Shown one piece after another: positions 2,471-19,439 of a stretch of 45,602 bases of DNA; within the stretch, counting starts at the first letter, position 1; each line of letters begins with the position of its first letter. This DNA is from Pseudomonadota bacterium. Its GTDB lineage: Bacteria; Pseudomonadota; Alphaproteobacteria; Rhodospirillales; Rhodospirillaceae. Under the pieces are notes generated by a model, which was given only the letters and a program-made list of their open reading frames with translations, had not been told where the DNA came from and ran no database searches. Location: assembly GCA_020160875.1 (NCBI GenBank), contig JAIUPE010000010.1, forward strand, positions 7,896-53,497. Direction: 5' to 3'. A program made the position numbers and the translations under genes.

Positions 2471-5400
2471 GTGTTACAGGCTTTTTTTGAGCGTCCGATC
2501 CTCAATTCGCCTTACGAATATCCGCGGCGCCACTGGGAACTGGACGACCAGGGCCAGCCGACCCAGCGGGTTATGGAGTCCCGCCGAAGAGCATCGTTTA
2601 TCACCCCTATTCCGAAGCCCAAGAAGCGTAAGAAGGGCCGCGGCAAACAGGCGGAGATGGTGTTCGACGAGGGCAAGGGCCTTTCGACCGCCAAGCAACA
2701 GTACGACACGACCTCCGTCATCAACGAGGTGCGTCAGGCTGTGGACTCCTGGCGATCCCTCCCAAACCCCAACCAGTGGCAGGTGACTCCCGAGACGGCG
2801 CGGCTCCTCCATCATTGGCGGCATCACGACTTCGCTGGTGTGCGCCCCTTCTTCTGTCAGATCGAGGCCGTGGAGACGGCAATCTGGCTCACTGAGGTGG
2901 CCCCCAACACCGCCGCCGGCAAGCGCATCCTGGGCCTCCTGAAGTCCGCCACAGACGAAGCCAATCCCGGGCTCAACCGTCTCGCCCTCAAACTCGCCAC
3001 CGGCGCCGGCAAGACTACGGTCATGGCCATGCTCATTGCCTGGCAGACTGTCAACGCCGCTCGCCGCGAAAGCAAAAACTTCACCCGGGGATTTCTCATC
3101 GTCGCGCCCGGCCTCACCATCAAGGACCGCCTGCGCGTTCTTCAGCCCAACGATCCGGATTCCTACTACTTCGACCGCGAGATCGTTCCGCCGGATCTCC
3201 ACGATGAAATCAGGAAGGCCAAGATCGTTATCACCAACTATCACGCCTTCAAGCTGCGCGAGCGTGTCGAACTTTCCGCCGGCGGCCGGCGTCTGCTCCA
3301 GGGCCGAGGCGGGGATGATCTCGACACCAAGGAGACCGAAGGCCAGATGATCCAGCGCGTCATGCCGGATCTCATGGGCCTCAAAAACATCATGGTTCTT
3401 AACGATGAGGCCCATCACTGCTACCGCGAAAAGCCGCCCGAGGAGGACGACGAGGATCTGAAGGGCGAGGAGAAAAAAGAAGCGGACAAGGAGAACGAAG
3501 CCGCCCGCTTGTGGATTTCAGGCCTCGAGACAGTGAACCGCAAGCTTGGCATTGCCCGCATCATGGACCTGTCGGCCACACCTTTTTTTCTGCGCGGCTC
3601 GGGTTATGCAGAAGGCACGCTCTTCCCTTGGACAATGAGCGACTTCTCCCTCATGGACGCTATCGAATGCGGCATCGTCAAACTGCCTCGCGTGCCGGTG
3701 GCCGAGAACATCCCGGGCGCCGAGATGCCCATGTACCGCGATCTGTGGGAGAACCTTAAAGATGCCGAACCCAAGCTGCCTCGCGCCGGCCGCGCCGTCT
3801 CCGGTGACCTCGATCCTTTGAAGCTGCCGACACTTCTTCAGACGGCGCTTGAATCCCTCTACGGCCACTATGAGAAAACCTTCAGGCTCTGGCAGGAGCG
3901 CGGTATCAAGGTGCCCCCTTGTTTCATCGTCGTTTGCCAGAACACCGCCATTTCGAAGTTGGTCTTCGACTTTATCTCCGGCTTCGAGCGCAAGCAGGAC
4001 GACGGCTCTACCAAGCTCAACCACGGCCGCCTCGCGCTCTTCCGCAATTACGACGACGTGACGGGCAAGCCGCTGCCTCGCCCCAACACGCTGCTCATCG
4101 ACAGCGAACAACTCGAAAGCGGCGAGGGGCTGGACGACAACTTCCGCAAGATGGCGTCGGATGAAATCGACCGCTTCCGGCGCGAGATCGTGGAACGCAC
4201 CGGTGACATCCGCGCCGCGGAGAATGTGACGGACCAGGACCTGCTGCGCGAAGTCATGAACACCGTGGGCAAGGCGGGCCAGCTCGGCGCCAACATCCGC
4301 TGTGTCGTCTCCGTCTCCATGCTCACCGAAGGTTGGGACGCCAACACCGTCACCCATGTCCTCGGCATCCGCGCCTTCGGCACCCAGCTTCTGTGTGAGC
4401 AGGTCATCGGCCGCGCCCTGCGCCGCCAGTCCTACGAGCTGAATAAGGAAGGGCTTTTCGACGTCGAGTACGCTGATGTCTTTGGCGTACCTTTCAATTT
4501 CACCGCCAAACCTGTGCCTGCACCACCCCAGCCCCCGCGCGAGACCATCCCGGTGCGCGCAGTGCGGCCCGACCGTGATCATCTGGAGATCCGCTTCCCC
4601 CGCGTCGAAGGTTACCGCGTCGAATTGCCGGAAGAGCGGCTCACCGCCAAGTTCAACGCGGACTCCGTGCTCGAGCTAACTCCGGACTTGATTGGTCCGT
4701 CCATCACCCAGAACTCAGGCATCATCGGCCAGACCGCCGACATGACCGTCGAGCATATGAACGACATCAGGCCCTCCACCCTCGTCTTCAACGTCACCCA
4801 GCGTCTGCTCTATACCAAGTGGCGCGACCCCGGGGAGGAACCGAAGCTGCATCTTTTCGGCCAGCTCAAGCGCATCACCAAGGAGTGGGTCGACGGTTAT
4901 CTCGTCTGCAAGGGCGGCGCCAATCCGGGCCAGCTTATGTACCAGGCCATCGCCGACATGGCCTGCGACAAGATCACCGCCGGCATCACCAGCGCGTTCA
5001 TCGGCGACAAACCAGTCAAGGCGCTGCTCGACTCCTACAATCCATCAGGTTCCACACGCTTCGTGCGGTTCAACACGTCGCGCGAGACGCGCTGGGAGAC
5101 CAAGGGCCCGCCGCCGCGCAATCACGTCGATTGGGTGATCTGGGACAGCGAATGGGAGGCCGAATTCTGTCGCGTTGCCGAATCCCATCCCAAAGTCGTC
5201 GCATACACCAAGAATCACAATCTCGGTTTCGAAGTGCCCTATCGCTACATGGGCGAGAACCGCAAATATCGCCCGGACTTTATCGTGCGCGTCGACGATG
5301 GTCGCGGGACGGATGATCTGCTCAATCTCGTGGTGGAAGTCAAAGGCTACCGTCGCCAGGACGCGAAGGAGAAGAAGGCGACCATGGAAACCTATTGGGT

Positions 5401-5551
5401 GCCGGGCGTGAACAACCTTGGCTCCTACGGGCGCTGGGCCTTTGCCGAACTGACAGAGATCTACGAATTCGAGTCCGACTTCAAAGAGAAGGTCGGGGAA
5501 ACCTTCAACGGGATGATCGCCGCGGCGTCATCCATGCAAAAGAGCAAGTGA
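2471..5551 (+). CDS. Type III-like restriction endonuclease Res subunit (helicase-nuclease)
   Basis: This 1026-aa protein starts at GTG 2471 behind an AAGGGGGAAGA ribosome site. It is an SF2 ATPase-nuclease: Walker A ATGAGKT at residues 176-182, DEAH at 312-315, SATP near 365, and motif VI QVIGRALRRQ near 645. The C-terminal PD-(D/E)XK domain reads YRPDFIVRV, then VVEVKGY about 20 residues later (D...E-x-K). The N-terminus (FFERPILNSPYEYP) is typical of the BPTD_3080 restriction endonuclease family, which pairs with a long adenine methyltransferase. In type III enzymes Res cuts DNA only in complex with Mod, which supplies site recognition. The next gene, one base downstream, is that Mod, but it carries a stop codon, so Res is probably idle unless another Mod or readthrough supplies it. 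The gene itself looks intact. Confidence 0.9.
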   Translation: MLQAFFERPILNSPYEYPRRHWELDDQGQPTQRVMESRRRASFITPIPKPKKRKKGRGKQAEMVFDEGKGLSTAKQQYDTTSVINEVRQAVDSWRSLPNPNQWQVTPETARLLHHWRHHDFAGVRPFFCQIEAVETAIWLTEVAPNTAAGKRILGLLKSATDEANPGLNRLALKLATGAGKTTVMAMLIAWQTVNAARRESKNFTRGFLIVAPGLTIKDRLRVLQPNDPDSYYFDREIVPPDLHDEIRKAKIVITNYHAFKLRERVELSAGGRRLLQGRGGDDLDTKETEGQMIQRVMPDLMGLKNIMVLNDEAHHCYREKPPEEDDEDLKGEEKKEADKENEAARLWISGLETVNRKLGIARIMDLSATPFFLRGSGYAEGTLFPWTMSDFSLMDAIECGIVKLPRVPVAENIPGAEMPMYRDLWENLKDAEPKLPRAGRAVSGDLDPLKLPTLLQTALESLYGHYEKTFRLWQERGIKVPPCFIVVCQNTAISKLVFDFISGFERKQDDGSTKLNHGRLALFRNYDDVTGKPLPRPNTLLIDSEQLESGEGLDDNFRKMASDEIDRFRREIVERTGDIRAAENVTDQDLLREVMNTVGKAGQLGANIRCVVSVSMLTEGWDANTVTHVLGIRAFGTQLLCEQVIGRALRRQSYELNKEGLFDVEYADVFGVPFNFTAKPVPAPPQPPRETIPVRAVRPDRDHLEIRFPRVEGYRVELPEERLTAKFNADSVLELTPDLIGPSITQNSGIIGQTADMTVEHMNDIRPSTLVFNVTQRLLYTKWRDPGEEPKLHLFGQLKRITKEWVDGYLVCKGGANPGQLMYQAIADMACDKITAGITSAFIGDKPVKALLDSYNPSGSTRFVRFNTSRETRWETKGPPPRNHVDWVIWDSEWEAEFCRVAESHPKVVAYTKNHNLGFEVPYRYMGENRKYRPDFIVRVDDGRGTDDLLNLVVEVKGYRRQDAKEKKATMETYWVPGVNNLGSYGRWAFAELTEIYEFESDFKEKVGETFNGMIAAASSMQKSK

Positions 5552-5552
5552 T

Positions 5553-8369
5553 ATGGCCAGAGCACCCCGCGCGCCGCGCGCTGCAAAGACCGTCGAGACG
5601 CTGAAGCATGCCGAGGACAAGCGGAAAAACATCCCGACCGCCGAGCTTCAGTCCGTCATCGAGCAGGAACAGAAAAACCCCAAGAAGGTCAAATACCCGC
5701 GCAACACCGATCTCGACCCTCAGCTCGTCTGGCGCGGCAAAGACGAGCAGGACTGGTCCGATCTCGTCGTCAACGCGCCGCCGCTCTACATCCAGGAGAA
5801 GGTGCACCCCAAGGTGCTGATCGACGACCTGTTACGGGAGTCGAAGGAGCGCGCCCATGATAAGGGCGAAATCGCGCCCGATCTATTCTCCGACTTCAAC
5901 GGCCTGCCCAAGGGCGTCGACAAGACGGAGTTCTATCAGCACGACCAGAACTGGTCGAACCGCATGATCCTCGGCGATTCATTGCAAGTGATGGCTAGCC
6001 TCGCCGAGCGTGAAGGCCTGCGCGGCAAGGTACAGTGCATCTATTTCGATCCGCCCTACGGCATCAAGTTCAACAGCAATTTCCAGTGGTCGACCACCAG
6101 CCGCGATGTGAAGGACGGCAACGCCGGCCACATCACGCGCGAACCGGAGCAGGTGAAGGCGTTCCGCGATACGTGGCGCGATGGGATACACAGCTATCTG
6201 ACGTATTTGAGGGATCGGCTGACGGTAGCGCGGGATTTGCTGTCTGATTCTGGCTCTATCTTCGTGCAGATAGGTGACGAAAACGTGCATCGCGTACGCG
6301 GTGTGATGGATGAAGTGTTCGGCGATGACAATGTCATCGCACAAATATCAACCAAGACATCGGGAGGATCCACCGGAGTCTATTTGGCGGGCGTTCTAGA
6401 TCATGTGTTGTGGTACGCGAAGGATCGCGAACGAACTAAGTTTCGGCAGCTACATCTAACAAAGGAACTGGGTAACGATGGCGCCGAAAAGTACAACCGA
6501 ATTCGCCTGCCTGACCTACAAAGACGGCCGCTAACGGCGGATGAGCGTGAACTGCGGACGCCGTTGCCAATAAACGCCGCAGTTTATCGCCAAGACAATC
6601 TCACGAGCCAGAGCGTTGGTCGCGACAAGGGAGAGGGGGCGGCTTCATGGTTCCCAGTGGAGCTAGAGGGTCATACAGTTAAGCCCTCTATGCGCGTTCG
6701 TTGGAAAACAAACGAGGCGGGCATGGCATGACTGCTGAAAGCAGATCGCGTCGAACTCACCGGAAATAGCATTTCCTATGTACGGTATCTCGCTGACTTT
6801 GCCGGAATCGTTCTAAACAATTCTTGGGACGACATCGGTGGAATTCAGAGTCGAGCCGATCCCAAGGTCTACGTTGTTCAGACGCCCACTATGGCAATTC
6901 AGCGTTGCATCCTCATGGCGACTGATCCGGGGGATTTGGTCTTGGATCCCACATGCGGTTCTGGCACGACGGCGTCGGTCGCCGAGCAATGGGGTCGGCG
7001 TTGGATTACTATTGATACCTCCCGTGTCGCTCTCGCGTTGGCTCGTGCCCGTATCATGGCTACGCGCTATCCATTTTATTTGCTCGCTGACTCCCGCGAA
7101 GGTCAGATGAAGGAAGGCGAAGTCACGCGCACTGCGCCAAGCTCGAAGCCCGTGCAGGGTAATATTCGCCAGGGTTTCGTCTACGAGCGTGTTCCCCACA
7201 TCACGCTAAAGTCCATCGCCAACAACGCTGAGATCGATGTGATCTGGGACAAGTGGCAGCAGACGCTGGAAACCACCCGGGAAAAGCTGAACGCGGTCCT
7301 CAAGAAGAAGTGGAATGAGTGGGAAATCCCGCGTGATGCAGTCGGTTCCTGGCCTGAAGCCGCGAAGAAATTCCATGCCGACTGGTGGCAAGCGCGCATC
7401 ACGCTACAGAAGGAAATCGATGCCTCCATCGCCGCCAAGGCGGAGTTCGAATACCTCTACGACAAGCCCTACGAGGACAGGAAGAAAGTTCGCGTCGCTG
7501 GGCCCTTCACCGTCGAGAGCCTCAGCCCACACCGCATCCTCGGCGTCGACGAGAACGACGAATTCATCGATGGCCTAAGTGACGATGGCGCGGAATACGG
7601 CAAGCGCTCCTTCCCGCAGATCATCCTGGAGAACCTCAAGACCGCCGGCGTGCAGCAGGCCCACAAGGAAGACCGCATCACCTTCACGTCGATGGAACCC
7701 TGGCCTGGTGCGCTGGTGTGCGCACGCGGGAAGTATATGGAAGGCGAGAGCCAGAAGAGTGCCGCCATCTTCATCGGTCCGGAATTCGGCACCGTCCAAC
7801 GGCCCGATCTGGTCGAAGCTGCGCGGGAAGCGGCCGACGCCGGATTCGACGTGCTCATCGCCTGCGCCTTCAACTACGACGCCCACAGCACCGAGTTCGG
7901 CAAGCTCGGCAAGCTGCCGATCCTGAAGGCGCGCATGAACGCCGACCTGCATATGGCCGATGATCTCAAGAACACCGGCAAGGGCAACCTGTTCGTCATC
8001 TTCGGCGAGCCGGATATCGATCTCATGACCGGAAAGGACGGACGGCTTAAGGTAAAGGTCAAAGGCGTGGATGTGTTCAAGCCCCAGACCGGCGAAGTGG
8101 TCAGCGACGGCGCCGACGGGATTGCCTGCTGGTTCGTGGACACCGACTACAACTCGGAGAGCTTCTTCGTCCGCCACGCCTATTTCCTGGGCGCAAACGA
8201 TCCCTATGGTGCACTCAAGAACACCCTCAAGGCCGAGATCGACGCCGACGCCTGGGCGACGCTCAACAGCGACACGTCGCGCGCGTTCGAGAAGCCGAAG
8301 TCGGGTCGAATCGCAGTGAAGGTCATCAACCACCTCGGCGACGAGGTGATGAAGGTGTTCCGGGTATGA
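5553..8369 (+). pseudogene. Type III-like Mod adenine-N6 methyltransferase, interrupted by in-frame TGA
   Basis: One continuous reading frame of about 938 codons is split by a TGA at 6729-6731 (codon 393). Downstream sequence stays in the same frame and still reads like the family, with WDDIGG and VVQT..MAIQRCILMATDPGD just before motif I. Catalytic motif IV DPPYG is at residues 166-170 and the AdoMet-binding motif I DPTCGSGT near codon 465, the beta-class order of type III Mod proteins. The stop falls between them, so neither fragment (5553-6731, or 6891-8369 from the next ATG) holds a whole methyltransferase. A single C-to-T change in an Arg CGA codon would explain it. Normally this subunit methylates and selects the target for Res. 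Codon use changes from about 6180 to 7130, roughly where a target-recognition region would lie. Alternatives are a sequencing error or stop readthrough. Confidence 0.85.
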
Positions 8370-8417: not shown

Positions 8418-8828
8418 TTGGCCGACATCATGTCGCCGGAGAAGCGAAGCGCGCTCATGTCCCGCATTCGGGGCCGGAACACCTCGCCCGAGGTGGCTGT
8501 GCGGAGGATGATCTTCGGCCTGGGATATCGCTTCCGTCTGCACCGGCGCGATCTTCCCGGCACACCGGACATCGTACTTCCGCGATTGCGCAAGGCAATA
8601 CTGGTGCACGGTTGCTTCTGGCATCGACACGCCAACTGTCGAGATGCGGTGATGCCAAAGACCAGGCCCGAATTCTGGAGAAGAAAGCTCGAGGGGAATG
8701 TCGCCCGTGACAAGCGATCCCGGGCCCTTCTGCGGAAAGCCGGCTGGCAGGTCCGCGTCGTCTGGGAATGCGAACTTCAGCGACCCAAACCCCTCATGTC
8801 GCGGCTTCGCCGTTTCCTGGAGAGATGA
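8418..8828 (+). CDS. vsr: Very-short-patch repair endonuclease Vsr
   Basis: This 136-aa protein is a full-length Vsr. The family nicks DNA 5' of the T in T:G mismatches that arise when 5-methylcytosine deaminates, starting short-patch repair. Visible signatures are the N-terminal SPEKRSALMSRIRGRNTSPE, the catalytic PGTPDIVLP with its Asp, and the metal/His segment HGCFWHRH, followed by PEFWRRKLEGNVARD. The start is taken as TTG 8418, which gives the family-typical M-A-D-I beginning and has an AGGGCGG-like ribosome site. ATG 8430, five codons in, is the alternative. Its last bases overlap the start of the cytosine methyltransferase as ATGA, so the two are translationally coupled, matching the usual dcm-vsr partnership. 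Confidence 0.95.
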   Translation: MADIMSPEKRSALMSRIRGRNTSPEVAVRRMIFGLGYRFRLHRRDLPGTPDIVLPRLRKAILVHGCFWHRHANCRDAVMPKTRPEFWRRKLEGNVARDKRSRALLRKAGWQVRVVWECELQRPKPLMSRLRRFLER

Positions 8829-10330
8829 TAGCCTTGAATTCGATGGGCGGCGCCAGAGCGGGGATGATGGACAGAGCCTTCGAAAAAAAGATTCAACGCC
8901 TGGCGGAAGGCGGAGCGCCGCGCGTGCTCGACGTATTTGCGGGCTGCGGGGGCGTCAGTCTCGGGTTCAAACGCGCGGGATTTGTACCCGTTGCAGGAAT
9001 AGAAGCCGATCCGCAGGCCGCGATCAGTTATGCCCGCAACATCCATGGCGAATCAGCGGATCGCCGATACGCGCGCGCGCGTGACATGCGGGACGATCCT
9101 GAAACGGTGCTGTCCGACATCGGGGTGAATCAGATTGCCAGCGCAATAGATGTCATGGTTGGCGGGCCCCCGTGCCAAGCCTACGCCCGCGTCGGCCGCG
9201 CAAAGCTTCGCGATGTCTACGAGCACCCCGAGGCCTTCCGCATCGACCCCCGGGCAAATCTCTATCTGCGGTTTCTCGAATATGTGCGCCGCCTGAAGCC
9301 GCTTGCTGTGGTCATGGAAAATGTCCCGGATATCCTCAACTTCGGGGGACACAACGTCGCCGAAGAAATCTGCGAGGTGCTGAAGAGTGAGGGCTTTGAT
9401 GCCGGGTACACCGTCCTGAATGCCGTCCACTACGGCGTGCCGCAGGTTCGTGATCGCGCTTTCGTCATCGCGTTCAGAAGGGAACTGCGGATTGACGTGT
9501 CAAAAGCATTTCCACGCCCCACTCACAGGCACGCGCTGCCGTCCGGCTACGTCGGATCCCGCAGCGTCGCCCTCAAGGTCGTCATGGATGACCTGTTCAC
9601 CCGAAGTTCGTTGATACGTCTGCCGACGGCCGATCCGGGCCTGCCGGCTGCCGTTACGGTACAACAGGCACTGGGTGACCTGCCGGAATTGAACTGGAGA
9701 ACGATCAGGCCGGGTGCCCGCACGCTGGATCGGACCGATGCGTACCGCCCTGTGAGGGCCTCCGCCTACGCAAGCATGATGCGGAACTGGCCCGATCTGG
9801 GCGTTCCCGAACATGTGGTCGACCATGTGACGAGATATCTTCCGCGAGACCCACCGATCTTTCGCCGGATGAAACCCGGGTCCGAATATCCTGCGGCGCA
9901 TGCGATTGCGATGCAGCTGTTCGAGAAGAAGTGCGCAGCGGTCAGACGCGCGGGTGGCCGGCTTACGTCAGCCCGCAAGGCCGACCTCATGGCGGAAACG
10001 GTACCGCCCTATCCGGTCGACAAGTTTCCGAACAAGTGGTGGAAGCTGGATGCCGGGCGGCCATCGCGGACCCTCATGGCGCATATCGGGAAGGATACGT
10101 ATTCACACATTCACTATGACAGCCGGCAGGCGCGGGTGATCACCGTGCGGGAGGCGGCGCGGTTACAATCATTCCCCGACGCCTTCCGCTTTGAGGGCGC
10201 CATGAATGCGGCGTTCCGGCAGATCGGGAATGCCGTTCCCCCGCTTCTCGCCTGGAGGATCGCGGAACGGATTGGCGAAGCCCTGGCCCAGTCGATCACC
10301 AACCGGGCGCGCCTGACGTCCGCGGCCTAA
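8825..10330 (+). CDS. DNA (cytosine-5) methyltransferase (Dcm/DrmMII-like)
   Basis: A C5-cytosine methyltransferase of 501 aa. Motif order is complete: motif I VFAGCGGVSLG (about 37-47) binds AdoMet, motif IV GGPPCQ (about 114-118) carries the catalytic Cys, motif VI has ENV (about 165), motif VIII RDRAFVIAF follows, then a variable target-recognition region, motif IX near TVREAARLQSFPDAF, and motif X RQIGNAVPP near 467. The frame is open from 8768, but ATG 8825 overlaps the vsr stop as ATGA and has GGAGAG just upstream, so it is preferred. In class 2 DISARM a C5 methyltransferase (DrmMII) marks self DNA. Position upstream of drmA-drmB suggests the same job here. The recognition sequence cannot be read from the protein. 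Confidence 0.93.
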   Translation: MIALNSMGGARAGMMDRAFEKKIQRLAEGGAPRVLDVFAGCGGVSLGFKRAGFVPVAGIEADPQAAISYARNIHGESADRRYARARDMRDDPETVLSDIGVNQIASAIDVMVGGPPCQAYARVGRAKLRDVYEHPEAFRIDPRANLYLRFLEYVRRLKPLAVVMENVPDILNFGGHNVAEEICEVLKSEGFDAGYTVLNAVHYGVPQVRDRAFVIAFRRELRIDVSKAFPRPTHRHALPSGYVGSRSVALKVVMDDLFTRSSLIRLPTADPGLPAAVTVQQALGDLPELNWRTIRPGARTLDRTDAYRPVRASAYASMMRNWPDLGVPEHVVDHVTRYLPRDPPIFRRMKPGSEYPAAHAIAMQLFEKKCAAVRRAGGRLTSARKADLMAETVPPYPVDKFPNKWWKLDAGRPSRTLMAHIGKDTYSHIHYDSRQARVITVREAARLQSFPDAFRFEGAMNAAFRQIGNAVPPLLAWRIAERIGEALAQSITNRARLTSAA

Positions 10331-10360
10331 GCCCCTCTCGCCGTTTGCCATTTTCCACTT

Positions 10361-10387
10361 CCCCTGGTAGTGAATCTCCCCTGGTAG
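10361..10387 (+). repeat. Two 10-bp direct repeats, 17-bp period, before the UvrD-like gene
   Basis: CCCCTGGTAG occurs at 10361-10370 and again at 10378-10387, in the 91-bp gap between the methyltransferase stop and the helicase ATG at 10422. Similarity extends a few bases past each copy (TGA versus CGA). The spacing is somewhat under two helical turns. It could be a protein-binding site or chance; this is the largest gap inside the 8418-19439 gene run. Confidence 0.4.
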
Positions 10388-10421
10388 CGAGTAAAAAGGG
10401 TACGATCGGGGGGCCGGCCTC

Positions 10422-12614
10422 ATGGCCGAAGTCGAAGTCGCCGTATTCCGAGCCGGCCGAGAAGTGGACCGGATTGTCCGGCCACTCCGGGAGCTGGACG
10501 GCCGCCCGGCGGTCACGTACCGAAGGCAGCTCTGGCCTCTTCTCCCGAATCGCGAAATTCACCTCGATGGTGTTGACCCCCGCCGCCCGTTTCCGGCGCC
10601 AGGATCCGCAACACGCGTTGCTCATGGCGACCGGAAGGCCGAACAGCGGATGGCCGGCGGCCCAGTCGCTGCGGGAGAGGCTCAGGTTGACGACGGAGAG
10701 GAACGCGCCGCAATCAGGTCCGCGGCTCCGGATGCGCGCATCCTCGTCCAGGCTGGACCGGGTACCGGAAAAACTGAAATCGCGGCCCGCCGTATCGCCG
10801 CCCTGATCGGATCACGGCTCTCACCCGGTCAATTGCTGGTCCTCAGCTTCTCGCGAAGCGCGGTCCGCACTCTTACCCGGCGCCTCTCGCGTCTGCAAAA
10901 CTGCGACGAGCATGTCGTTGAAGAACTACGGCACGTCGCGATCAGAACCTTCGATTCATGGGCGTTTCGCATCCTGCGACTGCTAGGCAGGCCGCCGGCT
11001 GAACTCATGAGTCGGAGCTATGATGACAATATCGCAGAACTGACGAGCTTGATTCGCGGGGAAAGACGCGAAGAGGTTCGGGCACGGATCGGCGAGCGGC
11101 GGCATATTATTGTCGACGAGTTCCAGGATCTGCCTGGTGTGCGCGCCGAGCTTGTCATGGCGCTGCTTGATCTGTTGGCGCCACCTGCCAAGAGCGGATG
11201 CGGATTTACCGTGCTGGGCGATCCGACCCAGGCGATCTTCGGCTTTACGTCCAAAGGAAAGGTCTTCCCCAAGGCCGCCGAATATTGGAAGCGAATGATC
11301 AATGCCTATGGCGAGAACATCACCGTTCGCACGTTGCACAAAAATTACAGGGCGGAGTCGGATATCGCGGCTCTATCTGCGCGGCTCCGGTCGCTGCTGC
11401 TGAGCGATTCCGATGAGGGCGAGAAACTGAAGGTCATACGGGAGGCCATAGATGCACTTCCGCCGCCACAGGAGCCGGTCGGACCCGGATTGCTCGCCGA
11501 CGACGGGCCTCGAAGCCATGCAATTCTCACCCGCACGAACGGTGAAGCGCTCCGTGTACTTCAGGAGTTGTTTGGCAGCGACGCTGCGGCCCCGGCGCGC
11601 AGCGTAAAGCTGCACGCCGGCAGCCATGTTTCGCTGCCGCCCGCGTGGATCGGTGCCCTGCTCCAGAGGCTGCAGCCGTCTGAGCTTCCGCGATCACAGT
11701 TCGGGAGGATCTACGCCCATCTCGGAAAGGAGTGGGACGAACTGACGAAGGAGCGGTTGGGTCTGCCGGACGAAAATACGGCCTGGACACGCCTCGCCGT
11801 CGCCAGCGGTAAGGCGGGCGACAGTCCTGCACTCAATATCGCCGACCTGCGCAGCCGGCTCGGATGGCCGGATGCGTTTCCGGATGATCAGGCGCTCTCG
11901 GATGAAGGGATCGTCATCACCACCATCCATAGATCAAAGGGGATGGAATTTGACGTTGTGACCATTCTCGATGCTTCGCCTGACGACGATGAACAACAAG
12001 CCAACAGCAACTGGTCCATGGCCGAAGAAGCCAGCGTCGGTTATGTCGGCATGACACGCGCGGCCCGAGACCTCAATCGTCTTGATGCAGATGAAATATA
12101 TAAGCCGCCGACATCCCGGTCATTTCGGGATGAGCGGGAGCGGCTGTGCCATTGGGGGAAGTGGATTAATCTGGAGATGGGCCTGCGTGGAGATATCGAT
12201 CCGTACGGCTTCGTCGACCCGGCGCTTCACGGCGGCGCCGCAGGTGTCAAAGACTTACAGGACTATCTTCTGAAGAATGCGCGGAGACTCGAAGGGCAGA
12301 AGGTCATGCTCCAGCGGCATTTCCTCGCCGAGGGCAAGGCCGTGTGGAACATCCACATCCAAGAGGGGTCAACGCCCGGCCGCGTCATTGGCCGGACCGG
12401 CCAGCAGCTCACACTCGACCTTCTCAGCCTCCTGCATAAGAAGGGCTACTCGCTGCCCAGGACGATCTTGAACCTCCGGATCGCGGGCGTCGGCACCGTC
12501 ACAGCGGAAGGAGAGTTTCCCCTGGAAGATCCACACCGCACCAGTCGTATATGGCTAGGAGTAAGCCTGTTCGGCACCGGAGATTTCAAGCCTCATAAGG
12601 GGCGCAATGGCTGA
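10422..12614 (+). CDS. UvrD/PcrA-like SF1 DNA helicase
   Basis: A 730-aa SF1A helicase. Walker A QAGPGTGKTEIA is near residues 110-120, motif Ia region LLVLSFSRSAVRTL follows, motif II IIVDEFQDL is near 228-236, motif III GDPTQAIFGF near 268, motif V THRSKGMEFDVV-type (here IHRSKGMEFDVV) near 503, and motif VI YVGMTRAARDL near 542. UvrD enzymes unwind DNA 3' to 5'. About 90 residues precede the usual helicase start and about 140 follow motif VI, so both ends carry family-specific extensions. The start at 10422 is the first ATG, and an antisense frame over its N-terminal part keeps some doubt about that end. The stop overlaps the drmA start by 8 bp, tying it to the DISARM-like operon. Its part in defence is inferred from position only. 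Confidence 0.88.
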   Translation: MAEVEVAVFRAGREVDRIVRPLRELDGRPAVTYRRQLWPLLPNREIHLDGVDPRRPFPAPGSATRVAHGDRKAEQRMAGGPVAAGEAQVDDGEERAAIRSAAPDARILVQAGPGTGKTEIAARRIAALIGSRLSPGQLLVLSFSRSAVRTLTRRLSRLQNCDEHVVEELRHVAIRTFDSWAFRILRLLGRPPAELMSRSYDDNIAELTSLIRGERREEVRARIGERRHIIVDEFQDLPGVRAELVMALLDLLAPPAKSGCGFTVLGDPTQAIFGFTSKGKVFPKAAEYWKRMINAYGENITVRTLHKNYRAESDIAALSARLRSLLLSDSDEGEKLKVIREAIDALPPPQEPVGPGLLADDGPRSHAILTRTNGEALRVLQELFGSDAAAPARSVKLHAGSHVSLPPAWIGALLQRLQPSELPRSQFGRIYAHLGKEWDELTKERLGLPDENTAWTRLAVASGKAGDSPALNIADLRSRLGWPDAFPDDQALSDEGIVITTIHRSKGMEFDVVTILDASPDDDEQQANSNWSMAEEASVGYVGMTRAARDLNRLDADEIYKPPTSRSFRDERERLCHWGKWINLEMGLRGDIDPYGFVDPALHGGAAGVKDLQDYLLKNARRLEGQKVMLQRHFLAEGKAVWNIHIQEGSTPGRVIGRTGQQLTLDLLSLLHKKGYSLPRTILNLRIAGVGTVTAEGEFPLEDPHRTSRIWLGVSLFGTGDFKPHKGRNG

Positions 12615-15600
12615 TCACACGGCGGTCCGCGAGGAACTGGTCAAGCTGACAGAGGGCCTGCTTCTGGGCCCACTTGCAGCCGATGAAATTCTCTCCTCCC
12701 CACCGGCCGATACCTACCTGACGGGCATACTTTGGCCGGAAGGGACGATGCTAGGTGAGGCCGAGGACGACAATGCGGATGGGGCCCCGTCGTCGGACGA
12801 CGGCGAAATGGACGCCGGCGTACCAGGCTATCGCGCCGTACGCCCCTGCTCCGTGGGTGTGACCGTCACCGCGGAAAAGTCCGCTACCTTGACGATCTCA
12901 CTGGCCAATACGGCCCGTTATGAGCTCTTGCAGGAGAGCGACGCGGCCGGGGGTCGAGCCAGCCGCCGCTGGCGGCGCATACCACTGCTCTACCGGTACG
13001 ACATTCCCCGCTCGGCAGCTGGAACGTGGCGAACAAACGAGTTTATCGGACCGAACGGCGAGCCCGTGCAGGATACGAACGTGCAGGTTCATATCCGCCA
13101 CAGGATCATCGGTGACAGCCAAGTTGTTACGGCCACTCTCATCAACAAGGCGGCAGAGAGCGACGAACGCCACCATAGCGAACAGTGCCTGTATCAGGCC
13201 GGGCTGGAGGTGCGCGCCGTGGATGCGTTGGGCGCTCCGGGCATTCGTCCGCGTCCCGCCGTGTCAACGGCAGGGAACGACGAGGATACCCAGTCTGCGG
13301 CTCTCCTCTACCGCGATGTGGTGGAATACGCCGTGGGACATGGGGTGTCCGCCATGTGGGGCGCGCCGGCCGATGGTCGAGTGGAGTCAGTCAGGACCGC
13401 CTGGATGCCTCGCGCCCACGTCAAAGGCATGAGCGCCGGCGGTCACGAAAGCCTGAGAATCTTCCAGAAGCGCTATCCGGACGCCTTTCGGGCGTCCTGG
13501 CTCGCCCGTAGCGACGCGAGGGCGGACGTCACAACTGCGCTTGGTGCATTCGTCGCAACCTATGAAACATGGATCGAGGAGACGCTCGAGAAGCGGAAGA
13601 ACAAATTCGAAGGCGAGTTGGCATTCGCCGCAGAACGCAACTTGCTGCGCTGCCAGACTGCAGCCCGTCGCATGTCTGCAGGGATCACCACACTCAAAGA
13701 AAACGAGTTCGCTTGGCGCGCATTTGCGCTCGCAAATAGCGCCATGGATCGACAGTCCAGGTACGATGCCAAGGGTGAGAAGAAAGGTCCGCTTGTGTGG
13801 CGTCCCTTCCAGCTCGCCTATTTCCTCCTGGTGCTGTCGGGGCTGGTCGATCCTACCGACACGGATCGTGAATGCGTCGACCTGCTCTGGTTCCCGACGG
13901 GAGGTGGCAAGACCGAGGCGTACCTTGCGCTGACTGCATTCCAGATTTTTCTACGGCGGTTGACGGACGGAGGTCGGCGCACCGGTGGCGGTGTCGACGT
14001 GCTGATGAGATACACCTTGCGTCTGCTTACCGTTCAGCAGTTCCAGCGCGCGGCCTCGTTGATCTGCGCGTGCGAAGCGATGCGCCGCGCAATGCCGGAA
14101 CTGGGAGCCGCGTCAATCTCGCTCGGCTTGTATGTTGGAGGCGACGCTACACCCAATCGCCGGGCGGACGCGCTGGAGGCCCTGCAACAGGAGCACGAGG
14201 GACAGGAGCCGCGCTCGACGCCGCGGCAACTTCTAAAATGCCCCGTGTGCGGTCAGGATCTTCCTCCCTCCTGCTATTCGGCCACCGAAGGCGCCGTCTC
14301 CATCGAAATTCGTTGCGCCAACAGCCGGTGCGAAACGGAGGGCCATCCACTCCCGGTGCTGACAGTGGACGACGACATCTATGCCCGTCCCGCCAGTCTG
14401 GTCATCGGCACGATCGACAAATTTGCCCAACTCCCTCGCAGGAGCGATCTCCGGGCACTGTTCGGTCTCGACGGCGGTCTCAGGCCCGGCCTCATCATCC
14501 AGGATGAGCTGCATCTGATTTCAGGACCACTCGGCTCAATGGCCGGTCTCTATGAGACGGTCATTGACCTCCTTTGCACGCATAATGAGGTCCGCCCGAA
14601 GGTCATAGGTTCGACCGCGACCATCGGACAAGCTGCGAGGCAGGTTCGCGCCCTTTTTGACAGGCCCGTTCTTCAGTTTCCTCCGTCCGGCTTTGAAGCA
14701 TCGGACTCTTTCTTCGCCGTGCGAGACGATGATGGGGCGGATAGACTCTACCTCGGCATCTCCTCTGCGGGGCGAAGCCCCAAGTTCGCGCTTCAGGCGA
14801 CAGCTGCCGCGCTCCTTCAGGCCGCCGCCGTGCGGCGACAAGGGGATCTGTCCGCCAGGCTGCTGGACCCTTTCTGGACGTGTGTCCTGTATTTCAACAG
14901 TCTGCGGGAACTTGGGGGCGCTCATGTGCTCCTGCAGGATGACATTCCGAGGCAGATGACATTTCTGGCCGGCCGGCTGGAATCCGACCAGCGCGTGCTG
15001 GAAGCGACGGCTGTAGAACTCAGCAGCCGCGTCCCGTCTCGCGAACTGCCCGAGTACCTTGCTCAACTGAACGTCGGACTTTCCGAGGATGACGAGGATC
15101 CGTTTTCCGCCCAGCCGCGCGACGCGGTTCTCGCATCAAACATGATCTCCGTGGGGGTCGATGTACCTCGGCTCGGATTGATGATTGTAAACGGTCAGCC
15201 AAAGTCCACCGCGGAATACATCCAGGCGAGTAGTCGTGTCGGGCGAGGATTGGATGGCCTGATTGTCACACACTACAATTTTGGGCGCCCGCGCGACGTC
15301 TCCCATTTCGAACACTTTCTCGCCTACCACGGTGCGTTGTATCGAAGCGTTGAGGCAACGAGTGTTACGCCATGGGCTCCGAGAGCGCGCGACAAGGCGC
15401 TGCACGCAGTCCTGGCCGCAGCAGTTCGTCACCTTGCCGTTGGCATGGAGTCGGATTCCGCAGCAGTCCAGTTCAATGCTGCGGACCCGGAAGTCCGCAG
15501 AATCGTCGCCGCAATCTGTGAACGCGCCAATGAGGCGTCGGAAGGTATCGAGGGCCAGGAAACCAGCGAAGACGTTGCCGGTATTATCCGGGAATGGGAA

Positions 15601-15804
15601 TTGAGATGTTTGAATGCACGCGGGAGCGGCTCGGACCTTCTTTACTGGGAGAAGAAAGCGCCGTTCGGCAAGACGCGCCCATACCTGATGACATCGGCGG
15701 AGGAAGGCAATCGTCCAGGTAAGACCGGCTGGCCCACTCCAAATTCGATGCGCGAGGTCGAACCATCTACCGCGTTCGCCTTGAAAGTGATCGGTAAGAA
15801 GTAA
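12607..15804 (+). CDS. drmA: DISARM helicase-like protein DrmA
   Basis: A 1065-aa protein with the DrmA pattern. A long N-terminal region precedes Walker A FPTGGGKTEAY at about residues 428-438. A zinc-binding segment CPVC...CANSRC lies near 544-570. The Walker B variant is DELH at about 633-636, then GSTATI, and the helicase C-terminal segment QASSRVGRGLDG near 873 followed by HYNFGRPRDVSHFEHF. DrmA is the large helicase of DISARM. With DrmB it forms the DNA-binding core that engages phage DNA, including unmethylated DNA with 5' ends (known for the family). The start ATG 12607 has AAGGGG upstream and overlaps the preceding stop. It ends on the A of drmB's ATG, so the pair is translationally coupled. 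Confidence 0.9.
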   Translation: MADHTAVREELVKLTEGLLLGPLAADEILSSPPADTYLTGILWPEGTMLGEAEDDNADGAPSSDDGEMDAGVPGYRAVRPCSVGVTVTAEKSATLTISLANTARYELLQESDAAGGRASRRWRRIPLLYRYDIPRSAAGTWRTNEFIGPNGEPVQDTNVQVHIRHRIIGDSQVVTATLINKAAESDERHHSEQCLYQAGLEVRAVDALGAPGIRPRPAVSTAGNDEDTQSAALLYRDVVEYAVGHGVSAMWGAPADGRVESVRTAWMPRAHVKGMSAGGHESLRIFQKRYPDAFRASWLARSDARADVTTALGAFVATYETWIEETLEKRKNKFEGELAFAAERNLLRCQTAARRMSAGITTLKENEFAWRAFALANSAMDRQSRYDAKGEKKGPLVWRPFQLAYFLLVLSGLVDPTDTDRECVDLLWFPTGGGKTEAYLALTAFQIFLRRLTDGGRRTGGGVDVLMRYTLRLLTVQQFQRAASLICACEAMRRAMPELGAASISLGLYVGGDATPNRRADALEALQQEHEGQEPRSTPRQLLKCPVCGQDLPPSCYSATEGAVSIEIRCANSRCETEGHPLPVLTVDDDIYARPASLVIGTIDKFAQLPRRSDLRALFGLDGGLRPGLIIQDELHLISGPLGSMAGLYETVIDLLCTHNEVRPKVIGSTATIGQAARQVRALFDRPVLQFPPSGFEASDSFFAVRDDDGADRLYLGISSAGRSPKFALQATAAALLQAAAVRRQGDLSARLLDPFWTCVLYFNSLRELGGAHVLLQDDIPRQMTFLAGRLESDQRVLEATAVELSSRVPSRELPEYLAQLNVGLSEDDEDPFSAQPRDAVLASNMISVGVDVPRLGLMIVNGQPKSTAEYIQASSRVGRGLDGLIVTHYNFGRPRDVSHFEHFLAYHGALYRSVEATSVTPWAPRARDKALHAVLAAAVRHLAVGMESDSAAVQFNAADPEVRRIVAAICERANEASEGIEGQETSEDVAGIIREWELRCLNARGSGSDLLYWEKKAPFGKTRPYLMTSAEEGNRPGKTGWPTPNSMREVEPSTAFALKVIGKK

Positions 15805-17684
15805 TGGCCCGCGCACCCAGAAAGCCGAAGACGGCGCCTCCACCCGAAGATGCCATTGAGCCGCTTGGGACCGTGCGTCGTTCGCAGCTGGTGTCCACAT
15901 TCGGTATAGGCGCGATCGTGGACCTTGAAAAAGGGTCTTTCATGCCGATGGGTCTGGAAGACTGGGAACGCGTGACGAAGCTTCCTTCCCTGACCATCGG
16001 AGAACCACGCCTGCAGGCCATGTTGGGGGTCAGCCATTTTCGATTGGGCCCCGTGAAGGAAGACATTCCGGGATCCAGCCAAGTCCGGGGCCGAAGCGCA
16101 GCTCCGGCGGTCCGCTTCCCCGAGTGGCACGAGTGTCCCAAGTGTCACCGCTTGGGCCGCGAGGGCGCGCCGTTTGAGCTCGCCGCCGATGGTGGGCGTC
16201 TGGTTTGCAACGGTCATAGTGGTGCGCCCGTACGCACGTCGCCCGTCAGGTTCGTTGTCGCGTGCCGTCGCGGGCATCTAAGCGATTTTCCCTGGGACTG
16301 GTGGACCCACCGGGAAAGACCCGAAGGAATTTGCCCCACTCCAACGCTCTATCTCGGCTCGCACGGCCGCTCAGCTGCGCTTGCTGACCTCTTCGTCAAA
16401 TGCACGGCTTGCGGTACCAAAGATCGGCCGACACGCGCATCGCTCGGAAACGCGTTTGGAGGGGCAGCACTGTCGGGCTTCCGGTGCACGGGCTACAGGC
16501 CGTGGCTTCATGATAGACAAGATGACTGCGACCAGCCTGTCCGAGCCCTGCAGCGTGGGGCGTCCAACGTCCATTTCGGCGTGCCCTGTTCCGCGCTTTC
16601 CATCCCGCCAGCTTCTGAAGCGGCGAGCCTTATCATTCAGGAGATGCGGGCGATTCTCGACGGCGTTTCGGAGGACACCCTGCCTGCCGTCCTCACAGGG
16701 GTTGCGAAACAATACGGCGTAACGGTCGATCAGCTTCTGGCCGCATATCGCAAGCTCCGTACGCTCGAAAACAGCGGCGTGTCACTGACCGAACGGCTCG
16801 CGCGTGCGGAGGAGTACGAGGCCCTTTCCGAGAACCGGGAAGATCCTGTAATCGGCGGCGTTGTTCCGCAATTTCTCAATCATGTCAGTGATCCCCCTCC
16901 TGGTTTGGCACAATGGTTCGATTTGATCGGGGCCGCGTCGCGATTGCGCGAGGTGCGCGCGCTGGCTGGATTCTCTCGGATCGAACCCTACCCCGTAAGC
17001 GCTGAATCTGTCCGGAAAGCGATCGAGGAAGGACTTGTCGCGCCGCTATCGAAAACGCCACGAGATTGGCTACCGGCGGCTGAGATACGCGGTGAAGGCA
17101 TTTTCCTCAGATTCAGGAGGTCGGCCGTCGAAGACTGGATCGATAGGAATTCGAAGCTTCGAGACCGCGCAGCGGAACTCGAGAATCGCAGCCAGCAGAT
17201 TGCCGATCAACGCGGATATGTTCGGGACTATTCGGTCACCCCGAGGCTCCTTCTCGTGCATTCTTTTGCGCACGCACTGATCCGTCAGATCAGTGTCGAA
17301 TGCGGGTATTCCGCATCGGCCCTACGAGAGCGCCTCTATGTGGCAGAGGAGGATCAGGCCGGCCCCGTGATGAACGGCGTCCTCGTCTACACCGGTTCAC
17401 CGGATTCGGAAGGAAGCCTGGGCGGACTGGTGAGGTTGGCCGAACCCGAACTGCTGGAGCCCATTGTTCTGCGGACGCTACGAAGTGCCGGCTGGTGTGG
17501 TAGCGACCCGGTTTGCATCGAGACGGACCCTGCCGTTTCCGGAGAGCGCGTAAGCGGCGCGGCCTGTCACTGTTGCCTGCTTCTGCCCGAGACGGCCTGC
17601 GAAAAATTCAACCGGGAACTCGACCGTGCTGTTCTAGTCGGCGATGCAGAAAATACGTTCAAAGGTTATTTCAGCAATGTGTGA
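15804..17684 (+). CDS. drmB: DISARM protein DrmB (DUF1998)
   Basis: This 626-aa protein begins with the DrmB hallmark RRSQLVSTFGIGAIVDL after a short basic-proline leader. Cysteine pairs CPKC (about 110-113) and CTACG (about 200) suggest zinc binding. The DUF1998 region near the C-terminus includes VHSFAHALIRQIS and ends with ACHCCLLLPETACEKFNRE around 587-605. DrmB is the obligate partner of DrmA and forms the DNA-recognition core of DISARM. Start and stop of the pair overlap by one base (drmA TAATG drmB). The combination and order match DISARM, so the assignment is strong even though drmC, normally downstream, is replaced here by the NERD-helicase gene. Confidence 0.9.
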   Translation: MARAPRKPKTAPPPEDAIEPLGTVRRSQLVSTFGIGAIVDLEKGSFMPMGLEDWERVTKLPSLTIGEPRLQAMLGVSHFRLGPVKEDIPGSSQVRGRSAAPAVRFPEWHECPKCHRLGREGAPFELAADGGRLVCNGHSGAPVRTSPVRFVVACRRGHLSDFPWDWWTHRERPEGICPTPTLYLGSHGRSAALADLFVKCTACGTKDRPTRASLGNAFGGAALSGFRCTGYRPWLHDRQDDCDQPVRALQRGASNVHFGVPCSALSIPPASEAASLIIQEMRAILDGVSEDTLPAVLTGVAKQYGVTVDQLLAAYRKLRTLENSGVSLTERLARAEEYEALSENREDPVIGGVVPQFLNHVSDPPPGLAQWFDLIGAASRLREVRALAGFSRIEPYPVSAESVRKAIEEGLVAPLSKTPRDWLPAAEIRGEGIFLRFRRSAVEDWIDRNSKLRDRAAELENRSQQIADQRGYVRDYSVTPRLLLVHSFAHALIRQISVECGYSASALRERLYVAEEDQAGPVMNGVLVYTGSPDSEGSLGGLVRLAEPELLEPIVLRTLRSAGWCGSDPVCIETDPAVSGERVSGAACHCCLLLPETACEKFNRELDRAVLVGDAENTFKGYFSNV

Positions 17685-17699
17685 CGGCTAGGTGCGCCA

Positions 17700-19439
17700 A
17701 TGGCGGAGCTTATCCCGGCTGTGCCCAAAGACTGCCCAGGCAGCGAACGCCTGGTGTTTGAACGTCTGGGCCGCGAACTGCCACATGACTGGATCATACT
17801 TCACTCCCTCGAATTCGCCTCCCACGAGACGAAGATGTGGGGTGAGACCGACATAACCGTTCTTTCTCCGCTGGGCATATTTGTGCTCGAGGTCAAAGGC
17901 GGAAAGGTCGAGTGCCGGAACGGCCTTTGGTACTACGGCGGCGGGGGCGAAACATTCGTAAAGAAAGAAAGCCCGTGGTCCCAAGCCTCCGGCTCCCTCT
18001 TCGCGATCCGCAAGCGCCTGCGCGATGCGGACGATTCATTCAAGAAGACGCTCTTCGGGATCGGCGTGGTGATGCCGTACACGACATTTACCGTCACGGG
18101 GTTCGAGATAATACCTGAAGTGCTGTTGGACCGGCGCCATTTCAGGGAACCACTTCTGGGATACATTGAACAGCTTCACAGGTATTGGGAGGCTGACTGC
18201 GCCCGGCGCGACAACGACGAGTGCCAGGGTTTGACGGCTGCGCAGCTTCGCAAGGTGCGCCAGATTCTCCGTCCGGATTTCGACACAGCGATGAGTCTTG
18301 GCGGGTACCTTACGGGTCTCGAAACCCAACTCCTTCACCTCACGAACGAGCAAATTCGAACATCGAGACGAATGGCGGCAAATCCCCGCAGTGTCGTGCG
18401 CGGGCGCGCCGGCACCGGCAAATCCATTTTGGCAGTCGAGCGGGCCCGCGAGCTTTCCGGTCTCGGTCTCCGTGTCCTGTACCTTTGCTTCAATCAGCTC
18501 CTCGCAGCGCACGTCCGAGCGTCATTAGCAAATGACCCGCGCGCCAAGGGAGTCGAGGCATGGCATGTCCATGCACTTTATCGGGACATTATAGATCGTG
18601 CCGGGCTTCTGGCAGACCTCGAGGCGGCCGATCCGAAGGCGGGCGACTACTTCCCGAAAATCTTTCCCAGGATCGCAGCCGAAGCGCTTTGCCTCGGACA
18701 GTTTGACGGATGGGATGCCCTGGTCATTGACGAGGCTCAGGATCTATTGACCCCTGAGCATCTCGACGCCCTGGATCTTCTCCTGAAGCAGGGTTTGCGG
18801 AACGGCCGATGGCACCTTTTTCTTGATCCACTGCAGAACATCTATGGTGGCGATGTTCAGGAGATGGTCGAGAAGCGTCTGGCGGAGGGAGCGCCGACCT
18901 TCGACGACCTTTTTGAGAATTGCCGCAATACGCGGCAGGTCGCGATCGAGACCTCCATTATTTCGGGAGTTGACCTGGCGATCGAAGGGGCTCCAAACGG
19001 GCCCAAGGCCGAGCTGCACTACTACACTTCACGCGACCGCGCGATCTCGGAAATTGATCGGGTCCTTTGCGAATTGATCGACGGGGATGTGGACCCGCTG
19101 GAAATCGCCATACTCTCCACCCGACGGCCCGAAAATTCCTTGCTCGCGGGGCGGAATGGCCTTGCCAGCCGAAAGCTTGTCGATCCTGCGAACGAAACCG
19201 AACTCAGGAGCGGCAATCTGCTTTTTACGACCATGCATGCGTTCAAGGGACTTGAGAAGCAGGCGATCATTGCCATCGATATGGATGAAATCGGCGACGC
19301 GTATTGGTCGATGCTTCATTACGCCGGCCTTTCTCGCGCTCGCTGCCTTCTGCATGTATTCCTGCCGGCGAGTGCCAAGGCGAAGTACGGCCTTCAGGCT
19401 GAAGCTTTCGGCCGCCGCCTGACCGCACGCTCCAGCTAA
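17700..19439 (+). CDS. NERD nuclease-like domain fused to UvrD-like helicase
   Basis: A 579-aa protein with an N-terminal NERD (nuclease-related) domain: WGETDITVLSPLGIFVLEVK at about residues 46-65 supplies the E/D...E-x-K pattern of the PD-(D/E)XK-like fold. A P-loop GRAGTGKS follows at about 235-242, motif II VIDEAQDL near 342, a motif III-like FLDPLQNIYG near 377, a motif V-like FTTMHAFKGLEKQAI near 503, and GLSRARCLLHVF near 542. It starts 15 bp after drmB and has the same strand, so it probably belongs to the operon, at the place where drmC (a PLD nuclease) sits in known DISARM. A substitute nuclease role is inference. It ends by overlapping the convergent gene's stop by 4 bp. Confidence 0.88.
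   Translation: MAELIPAVPKDCPGSERLVFERLGRELPHDWIILHSLEFASHETKMWGETDITVLSPLGIFVLEVKGGKVECRNGLWYYGGGGETFVKKESPWSQASGSLFAIRKRLRDADDSFKKTLFGIGVVMPYTTFTVTGFEIIPEVLLDRRHFREPLLGYIEQLHRYWEADCARRDNDECQGLTAAQLRKVRQILRPDFDTAMSLGGYLTGLETQLLHLTNEQIRTSRRMAANPRSVVRGRAGTGKSILAVERARELSGLGLRVLYLCFNQLLAAHVRASLANDPRAKGVEAWHVHALYRDIIDRAGLLADLEAADPKAGDYFPKIFPRIAAEALCLGQFDGWDALVIDEAQDLLTPEHLDALDLLLKQGLRNGRWHLFLDPLQNIYGGDVQEMVEKRLAEGAPTFDDLFENCRNTRQVAIETSIISGVDLAIEGAPNGPKAELHYYTSRDRAISEIDRVLCELIDGDVDPLEIAILSTRRPENSLLAGRNGLASRKLVDPANETELRSGNLLFTTMHAFKGLEKQAIIAIDMDEIGDAYWSMLHYAGLSRARCLLHVFLPASAKAKYGLQAEAFGRRLTARSS

Follow-up and report, generated by a model that had tools for sequence, protein, structure and literature searches.

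In a 45,602-nucleotide (nt) stretch of DNA from a member of the Rhodospirillaceae (Alphaproteobacteria; assembly GCA_020160875.1, contig JAIUPE010000010.1, positions 7,896 to 53,497 of the forward strand), referred to throughout as the window, an operon brings together the DISARM proteins DrmA and DrmB with two helicases that belong to neither described class of DISARM. On the comparisons presented here, the fixed unit is a set of four genes encoding a UvrD-like superfamily 1 (SF1) helicase, DrmA, DrmB and a NERD-helicase, that is, a NERD nuclease domain joined to an SF1 helicase. This four-gene arrangement recurs in several bacterial phyla and therefore looks like a distinct form of DISARM that has been little described, and not an isolated case. 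Two genes upstream of it, vsr and dcm, are variable companions. Taken together, the locus probably encodes a DISARM-lineage anti-phage system of the restriction type, having a UvrD-like, DrmA, DrmB and NERD core that is fixed and a modification module that is exchangeable, represented here by Dcm and Vsr.

A recurrent four-gene order

The preliminary description of this locus had treated six overlapping or nearly abutting plus-strand genes, vsr-dcm-uvrD-drmA-drmB-NERD (window 8418-19439), as one operon and a possible distinct DISARM subtype. The open reading frame (ORF) list and the Pfam and PADLOC scans bear out all six genes, their positions and their identities, with successive intergenic distances of -61, +91, -8, -1 and +15 nt. 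We compared 104 DrmA loci, comprising 78 of 80 from genome contigs, 10 from plasmids (taken from 85 records with a match), 15 from two genome samples, and the window; loci and genomes carry L and G numbers respectively. Two contig loci (L053 and L074) were left out when their DrmA was lost during gene picking, a fragment (L130) and a duplicate (L131) were dropped, and weak or short hits in G012, G411, G545, G560, G613 and G690 were not used. The 80 contig loci are the best 80 of at least 588 relatives, picked by similarity, and the sample leans towards the window's kind. Labels for neighbouring genes came from profiles of a small number of reference genes, and class 1-type loci were called by DrmMI and DrmC.

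Twenty of the 104 loci have the order UvrD, DrmA, DrmB, NERD-helicase, a recurrence that argues against chance. UvrD, DrmA and DrmB stand without an adjacent NERD-helicase in 30 loci, the NERD-helicase precedes DrmA in eight, and DrmA-DrmB-NERD lacks UvrD in two. Ten loci are of class 1 type with DrmMI, six of these having DrmC; another six have DrmC without DrmMI in the same run, including one (L136) that is class 1-like, its DrmD- and DrmMI-like genes lying on the other strand, and 28 show other arrangements. The exact six-gene order occurs in the window only. The four-gene order, in contrast, is shared with other genomes.

Among 385 genomes drawn evenly from the window's class, DrmA matches occur in 10 (one weak, one a fragment). 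The four-gene order is present in two of them, the window's own genome and that of L122, in which an IS21-type gene sits between a cut-short drmB and the NERD gene. The UvrD family reaches E 1e-40 in three of the 385, the window's own included, and its distribution is patchy. No DrmA relative was found in phage records.

A second DISARM-like arrangement was seen in L031, where a 1570-residue protein (3462-8174) with weak sacsin-type similarity and a superfamily 2 (SF2) helicase lies directly before UvrD-DrmA-DrmB; these features were tested in L031 and in the Chloroflexota locus L026. Genes of a size similar to that of the 1570-residue protein are present in other actinobacterial loci.

Shared history of the core genes

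In a quick DrmA tree of 102 proteins, built without a mixture model, the window falls within a set of 22 rows with a Shimodaira-Hasegawa-like approximate likelihood ratio (SH-aLRT) support of 95. Sixteen of these rows have all four genes, five have no adjacent NERD-helicase and one has no UvrD; at the incomplete loci L018, L020 and L024 a contig end lies at, or within 400 nt of, the side concerned. A more careful tree of 44 rows, hand-chosen out of the 104, separates 18 clade rows from the rest by a branch supported at 100/100; all four genes are present in 15 of these rows, and three (L020, L027 and L122) have no adjacent NERD-helicase. Eight class 1 rows, together with L028, L040 and L136, split off at 98/96. 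The clade includes Pseudomonadota and metagenome-assembled genomes (MAGs) assigned to Acidobacteriota, Balneolota and Micavibrio, although such bins can be contaminated, and some of its members are plasmid-borne. Plasmid copies of the four core genes include those of Azospirillum and Rhizobium ruizarguesonis (L003 and L002). Thus, the earlier suggestion of a distinct subtype holds in that the window DrmA is separate from class 1. Comparison with class 2 is indirect; the two loci with DrmE over cut-off (L030 and L077) branch away from the window clade. L186 and L188 were dropped as DrmE-bearing loci, having respectively no DrmE_fam match and 34 bits against a cut-off of 80.

The trees of the four genes are correlated. 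Over 25 loci (22 of the clade plus L026, L045 and L089), tree distances correlate at r = 0.91 for DrmA and DrmB (25 loci), 0.90 for DrmA and UvrD (24), 0.85 for DrmA and NERD (21), 0.88 for UvrD and NERD (20) and 0.89 for DrmB and NERD (21); none of 2000 permutations was as high for any of these pairs.

DISARM components of the window

Class 1 DISARM has the order drmD-drmMI-drmA-drmB-drmC and class 2 drmE-drmA-drmB-drmC-drmMII. The window DrmA and DrmB match their counterparts in PDB 7S9V at E 1.8e-153 and 1.9e-78 respectively. DrmB, a separate gene overlapping drmA by 1 nt, passes the NCBIfam DrmB_fam cut-off (491.9 bits against 240), while DrmA falls just under that of DISARM_DrmAS (919 bits against 950). 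All five clade DrmAs tested, the window's included, are below the latter (904-936); outside the clade, L186 is also below (861), while L028 and L010 pass (1238 and 1440).

The preliminary description reported neither drmC nor drmE, and searches of the window's genome assembly (3.76 Mb, about 91% complete) agree. The best DrmC_I match in the whole genome scores 37.7 bits against a cut-off of 133, phospholipase D (PLD) proteins being on other contigs, and a DrmC profile matches none of the window genes. DrmE_fam has no match anywhere in the genome. No window gene is matched by a two-sequence DrmMI profile, and the upstream methylase is a type III Mod. Profile comparison found no similarity by which the UvrD-like gene could be read as a DrmE that has diverged, a weak test with three sequences on one side. 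Since DrmC, DrmE and DrmMI were not found and DrmA just misses its cut-off, the operon is, by these profile searches, of the DISARM lineage yet neither class 1 nor class 2 as defined.

A nuclease-helicase in the position of DrmC

The NERD-helicase stands where DrmC would be, and an SF1 helicase directly precedes drmA, both as first described. Across the sample, 47 of the 104 loci have a NERD-helicase, complete with its NERD part, close to DrmA and on its strand; 12 have DrmC, and none has both (Fisher p 4.4e-4, a statistic that ignores phylogeny). A second DrmC profile, applied to whole stretches, returned the same 12 loci. The NERD-helicase is not peculiar to the window's order, having been found before drmA in the eight loci mentioned above; genes labelled 'AAA ATPase' before drmA in 12 further loci are NERD-helicase homologues, and L123 has one after drmB. 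An Ignavibacteria MAG (L077, 4076-15298) has the order vsr, dcm, drmE, NERD-helicase, drmA, drmB without DrmC, its DrmE_fam score being 384 bits (cut-off 80). In the 385-genome sample there are eight NERD-helicase matches above 120 bits, of which six are in or beside DrmA-DrmB runs (two in G364) and two, in G140 and G065, are away from them. Judged by these associations, the NERD-helicase is a recurrent partner of DrmAB outside class 1.

Conserved motifs and predicted structures

The PD-(D/E)xK motif of the NERD part and the SF1 motifs of both helicases are conserved. In the NERD family, E64 and K66 are present in 25 of 25 homologues and E49 and D51 in 24, with one gap; we take the stretch E49-x-D51 ... 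E64-V-K66 to be the NERD active-site motif. The SF1 residues checked in this family are invariant except for Q379 (21/25) and S or T at position 242. Among 35 aligned UvrD-like proteins (of 41 collected), K117, D232, E233, Q270, R310 and R546 are found in all, and the SF1 residues checked vary only by one substitution each at T118 and H503. Structure models have a mean predicted local distance difference test score (pLDDT) of 87 for the NERD protein and 85 for the UvrD-like protein. The best PDB folds are SLFN11/14, Upf1, Dna2 and UvrD for the former and Rep, UvrD and PcrA for the latter; template modelling (TM) scores normalised by query length are 0.25-0.46 in the rows listed and support the helicase superfamily only.

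Residue 67 of the window DrmA aligns with chain residue 224 onward of the Serratia DrmA in 7S9V, leaving about 157 N-terminal residues of the latter without counterpart. The N-terminus of class 1 DrmA carries an EVE-like domain according to the sections available of PMC12458937. An autoinhibitory trigger loop occupies residues 176-232 of Serratia DrmA (PMC9142583, available sections). Bordering the stretch aligned to residue 224 and beyond, the window DrmA has an acidic linker, and such a linker is measurable by pattern in 16 of 23 clade loci (32-39 residues, with 8-12 D/E and 1-3 K/R). Four class 1 DrmAs inspected also have an acidic stretch at the same place.

Variation of Dcm and Vsr

In the fetched stretches, a C5 methylase accompanies 14 of 23 clade loci, compared with 1 of 10 loci of class 1 type; stretches were about 10-23 kb, and for the window only 2-27 kb was counted. 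Vsr is present in nine of the 23, window included. The place, strand and family of dcm and vsr vary among clade loci. L005 has type III mod and res directly before UvrD, DrmA, DrmB and NERD, and no Dcm was found there. The window Dcm is the sole C5 methylase found in its genome (one PF00145 match), and its family (above 429 bits) occurs in five of the 385 same-class genomes, twice beside the four-gene core. The same family is also found in a cassette with Vsr and a DUF2357 gene, the latter being McrC-type (PMC11090510, in part); L004 and L014 have this cassette next to the core, and L165 has it in the absence of the core.

Several observations weigh against the reading of a fixed core served by a modification module. 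Dcm history is uncorrelated with that of the core, tree-distance r being 0.13 with DrmA (15 loci), 0.16 with UvrD (14) and -0.01 with NERD (13), values reached by 10%, 7% and 48% of permutations respectively. Nine of the 23 clade loci have no C5 methylase in the stretch examined, although contig ends truncate some of these, and right at the edge of L002 the annotation has a truncated dcm. In G066, G096 and G263 the Dcm family occurs without the core, so Dcm may serve another system. With regard to the core itself, 57 of the 104 loci have no NERD-helicase near DrmA, where it may be dispensable or supplied from elsewhere, and the clade loci L025 and L027 show none in the stretch examined. Finally, L026, L045 and L089 have the four-gene order yet branch outside the clade, from which the order appears to have been assembled or rearranged on more than one occasion.

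The claim that vsr and dcm belong to one six-gene unit must accordingly be abandoned: they vary in presence, place, strand and family, and dcm has a history of its own. Because the Dcm tree is uncorrelated and place, strand and family vary, Dcm and Vsr look like an add-on and modification like an exchangeable module. A further step would be to regard UvrD-DrmA-DrmB-NERD as self-sufficient and in need of no methylation, self being told from non-self by DNA ends as has been proposed for DrmAB, with Dcm and Vsr as independent neighbours left by another, or a lost, restriction system. The uncorrelated trees, the shifting position and strand of dcm, the nine loci that show none and the DUF2357 cassette all fit this, as does the argument of Bravo 2022, in the sections available, that DrmAB recognises DNA structure (PMC9142583). 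We consider it somewhat doubtful all the same, as a C5 methylase in 14 of 23 stretches is far above an expectation of one per genome, and L005, with no Dcm found, has type III mod-res ahead of the core.

The locus and its surroundings

Table 1. Genes and protein features of the operon and of the DNA immediately upstream, in window coordinates.
Feature	Position	Strand	Evidence	Remarks
vsr, very-short-patch repair endonuclease, 136 residues	8418..8828	+	Pfam Vsr 98.2 bits; PADLOC Vsr	TTG start; accessory
dcm, C5-cytosine DNA methyltransferase, 520 residues	8768..10330	+	Pfam DNA_methylase 187.8 bits	accessory
uvrD-like SF1 helicase, GajB/Rep/UvrD type, 730 residues	10422..12614	+	Pfam UvrD-helicase 83.9 bits	core gene 1
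drmA, YprA-type SF2 helicase, 1065 residues	12607..15804	+	PADLOC DrmA 717.9 bits	core gene 2
DrmA acidic linker, residues 45-78	12739..12840	+	34 residues: 10 D/E, 1 K/R	trigger-loop position
drmB, DUF1998/MZB zinc protein, 626 residues	15804..17684	+	DrmB 247 bits	core gene 3
NERD nuclease + SF1 helicase, 579 residues	17700..19439	+	Pfam NERD 39.7 bits (residues 16-110); SLFN-g3_helicase	core gene 4; predicted effector
NERD active-site stretch (presumed)	17844..17897	+	conservation among homologues	
res, type III restriction subunit	2471..5551	+	Pfam ResIII and RE_endonuc	
mod, type III, two same-frame ORFs (5553-6731, 6891-8369)	5553..8369	+	one 983-position PADLOC model	
DrmD-like SNF2 helicase (contig C10 7064-10309)	about -831 to 2414	-	PADLOC DrmD 799 bits	

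An in-frame ATG at 8825, which overlaps the vsr stop codon as ATGA, is a likelier start for dcm than 8768. The best PADLOC models for the window Dcm are MTase_II (249 bits) and DrmMII (241 bits).

The plus-strand run begins upstream of vsr, with res-mod (2471-8369) ending 48 nt before it, and res is a possible further member of the transcription unit. The two mod ORFs cover positions 76-418 and 477-983 of a single model; mod is apparently split by a stop, or the split is an assembly error. The DrmD-like gene is divergent from res at a distance of 56 nt and outside the operon, and lies mostly within the window's left end. It is possible to join all of these, DrmD-like and res-mod-vsr-dcm-uvrD-drmA-drmB-NERD, in a larger mosaic that amounts to DISARM remodelled with a type III methylase. 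The short distances and the PADLOC DrmD score speak for this, as do the mod-res-UvrD-DrmA-DrmB-NERD order of L005, a DrmD-like fragment downstream of NERD in L122 (34% over 276 residues) and the type III genes ahead of DrmA-DrmB-DrmC in L069. It is nevertheless unlikely, given that the window mod is interrupted, that the DrmD-like protein is on the other strand and under the NCBI DISARM cut-off (424 bits against 610), and that, besides the window genome, res or mod hits at E 1e-15 were found only in L005 (both) and L036 (res).

A 501-residue minus-strand ORF with no PADLOC match comes after the DrmD-like gene. In L002, L018, L019, L021, L023 and L027 a divergent two-gene module stands upstream of the UvrD-like gene, consisting of a protein of about 1000 residues (no PADLOC match in L019) and an SNF2/DEAD-type helicase of 920-1050 residues. 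Kinship between these helicases and the window's DrmD-like protein was unsupported, alignments being short and of 24-34% identity.

The genomic setting of the operon includes the type III restriction-modification genes, a NACHT protein, and a tRNA-Ser with a tyrosine integrase. The integrase (34659-36182, minus strand) adjoins tRNA-Ser(CGA), and a 15-nt copy of the tRNA-Ser end near contig position 1257 is a candidate att site; the whole island would then lie on an element of about 43 kb. A further candidate defence gene, at 22329-27269 on the plus strand, encodes a 1646-residue NACHT protein that matches HEAT repeats below cut-off and Avs2 weakly. Three overlapping minus-strand genes (19436-22007) encode an unknown protein of 333 residues, an HNH nuclease and a DUF6946 protein, and none has a homologue at E 1e-15 among the fetched loci.

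Comparison with described systems

The operon shares with class 1 DISARM the adjacent DrmA and DrmB, which have the same order and are homologous along most of each protein, and the acidic loop at the trigger-loop position; divergently upstream is a helicase that resembles DrmD without reaching the NCBI cut-off. It differs in that neither DrmMI nor DrmC was found, in its operonic UvrD-like and NERD-helicase genes, in the shorter DrmA N-terminus and in its separate, fully supported clade. As in class 2, a C5 methyltransferase accompanies DrmA-DrmB, a single gene immediately precedes drmA and a nuclease gene immediately follows drmB; however, the UvrD-like helicase takes the DrmE position and the NERD-helicase that of DrmC, a comparison that is indirect, no operon with both DrmE and DrmC having been identified in the sample.

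Other systems resemble it in part. Likewise, a single operon of ARMADA type II joins a methyltransferase to two helicases, one YprA-type and one GajB/UvrD-like. In ARMADA there are, in addition, BrxHII-like and PglX-like genes, YprA carries a fused Vsr nuclease domain and the GajB-like protein is fused to RelE (PMC12458937, in part), whereas DrmA and DrmB of the window are separate genes without Vsr match and Vsr is encoded on its own. TALON pairs a YprA-type helicase with a NERD-type nuclease and has ARMADA-like YprA, TPR-CSD and TBP genes (PMC12458937, in part); a Pfam scan of 24 window ORFs showed neither TPR-CSD nor TBP genes. UvrD-Cas4 fusion loci place an SF1 helicase and a PD-(D/E)xK nuclease beside Dcm and Vsr in defence contexts, but there the Cas4/RecB-type nuclease is fused to UvrD, and DrmA and DrmB are not named in the sections available (PMC5704561).

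Bell et al. 2025 report many uncharacterised DISARM-like classes; a UvrD-DrmAB-NERD system is not named in the text, insofar as available, and its members may be listed among those classes (PMC12458937). The available sections of PMC10270631, PMC11090510, PMC9252829, PMC5704561, PMC12839542 and PMC10853773 do not describe UvrD-DrmA-DrmB-NERD, nor was a description found in the main text of openly licensed papers.

A gut Bacillota MAG (L069) has the order Dcm, DrmD-like, N6/N4 methylase, type III Res, DrmA, DrmB, DrmC, in which type III restriction-modification is merged with DISARM; L073 and L086 resemble it by gene size alone.

Predicted mode of action and significance

From gene content, the recurrence and correlated history of the four genes, their conserved catalytic motifs and the exclusion between NERD-helicase and DrmC in the sample, we infer a role in defence, a link to Dcm methylation and the following steps. 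Host DNA would be methylated by Dcm, and the T:G mismatches that result as deamination products would be repaired by Vsr. DrmAB would sense, and load on, phage DNA with single-stranded 5' ends; as in the Serratia complex, the acidic loop of DrmA would keep it off ordinary duplex until the loop is moved aside. The UvrD-like motor would then open the duplex and extend the single-stranded region, on which the NERD nuclease-helicase, in place of the PLD nuclease DrmC, may travel and cut.

Tentatively, these components may constitute a third DISARM class, in which DrmAB senses and loads and a RecBCD-like pair of SF1 motors unwinds and destroys phage DNA from its end, with a methylation module that is exchangeable (Dcm-Vsr or type III Mod-Res). 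This is possible, though short of likely. The UvrD-like motor is expected to move 3'-5', and the NERD-fused motor is nearest in its model to SLFN11/14 and to the 5'-3' SF1B helicases Upf1 and Dna2; these polarities come partly from what is known of the helicase families. Were it true, the nuclease sought by DISARM research would be a fixed part of the operon here.

The UvrD and Vsr families also have roles in repair. A cluster of YprA, UvrD and nuclease helicases with Vsr for DNA repair or recombination, rather than defence, to which the repair activity of the YprA relatives MrfAB lends some colour (PMC12458937, in part), is highly improbable in view of the patchy distribution, the plasmid- and integrase-linked copies, the DISARM proteins that are the nearest relatives of DrmA and DrmB, and the neighbouring restriction genes.

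The nuclease step of DISARM is unsolved, and DrmC is dispensable and often missing (PMC9142583, available sections). A nuclease-helicase that is co-inherited with DrmAB and never beside DrmC in the sample would provide a direct test of what receives the DNA from DrmAB. PADLOC, which requires DrmC in both classes, and the NCBI DrmA cut-off would together miss or misname this multi-phylum group, as these results suggest; they also suggest that such systems can exchange their methylation component.

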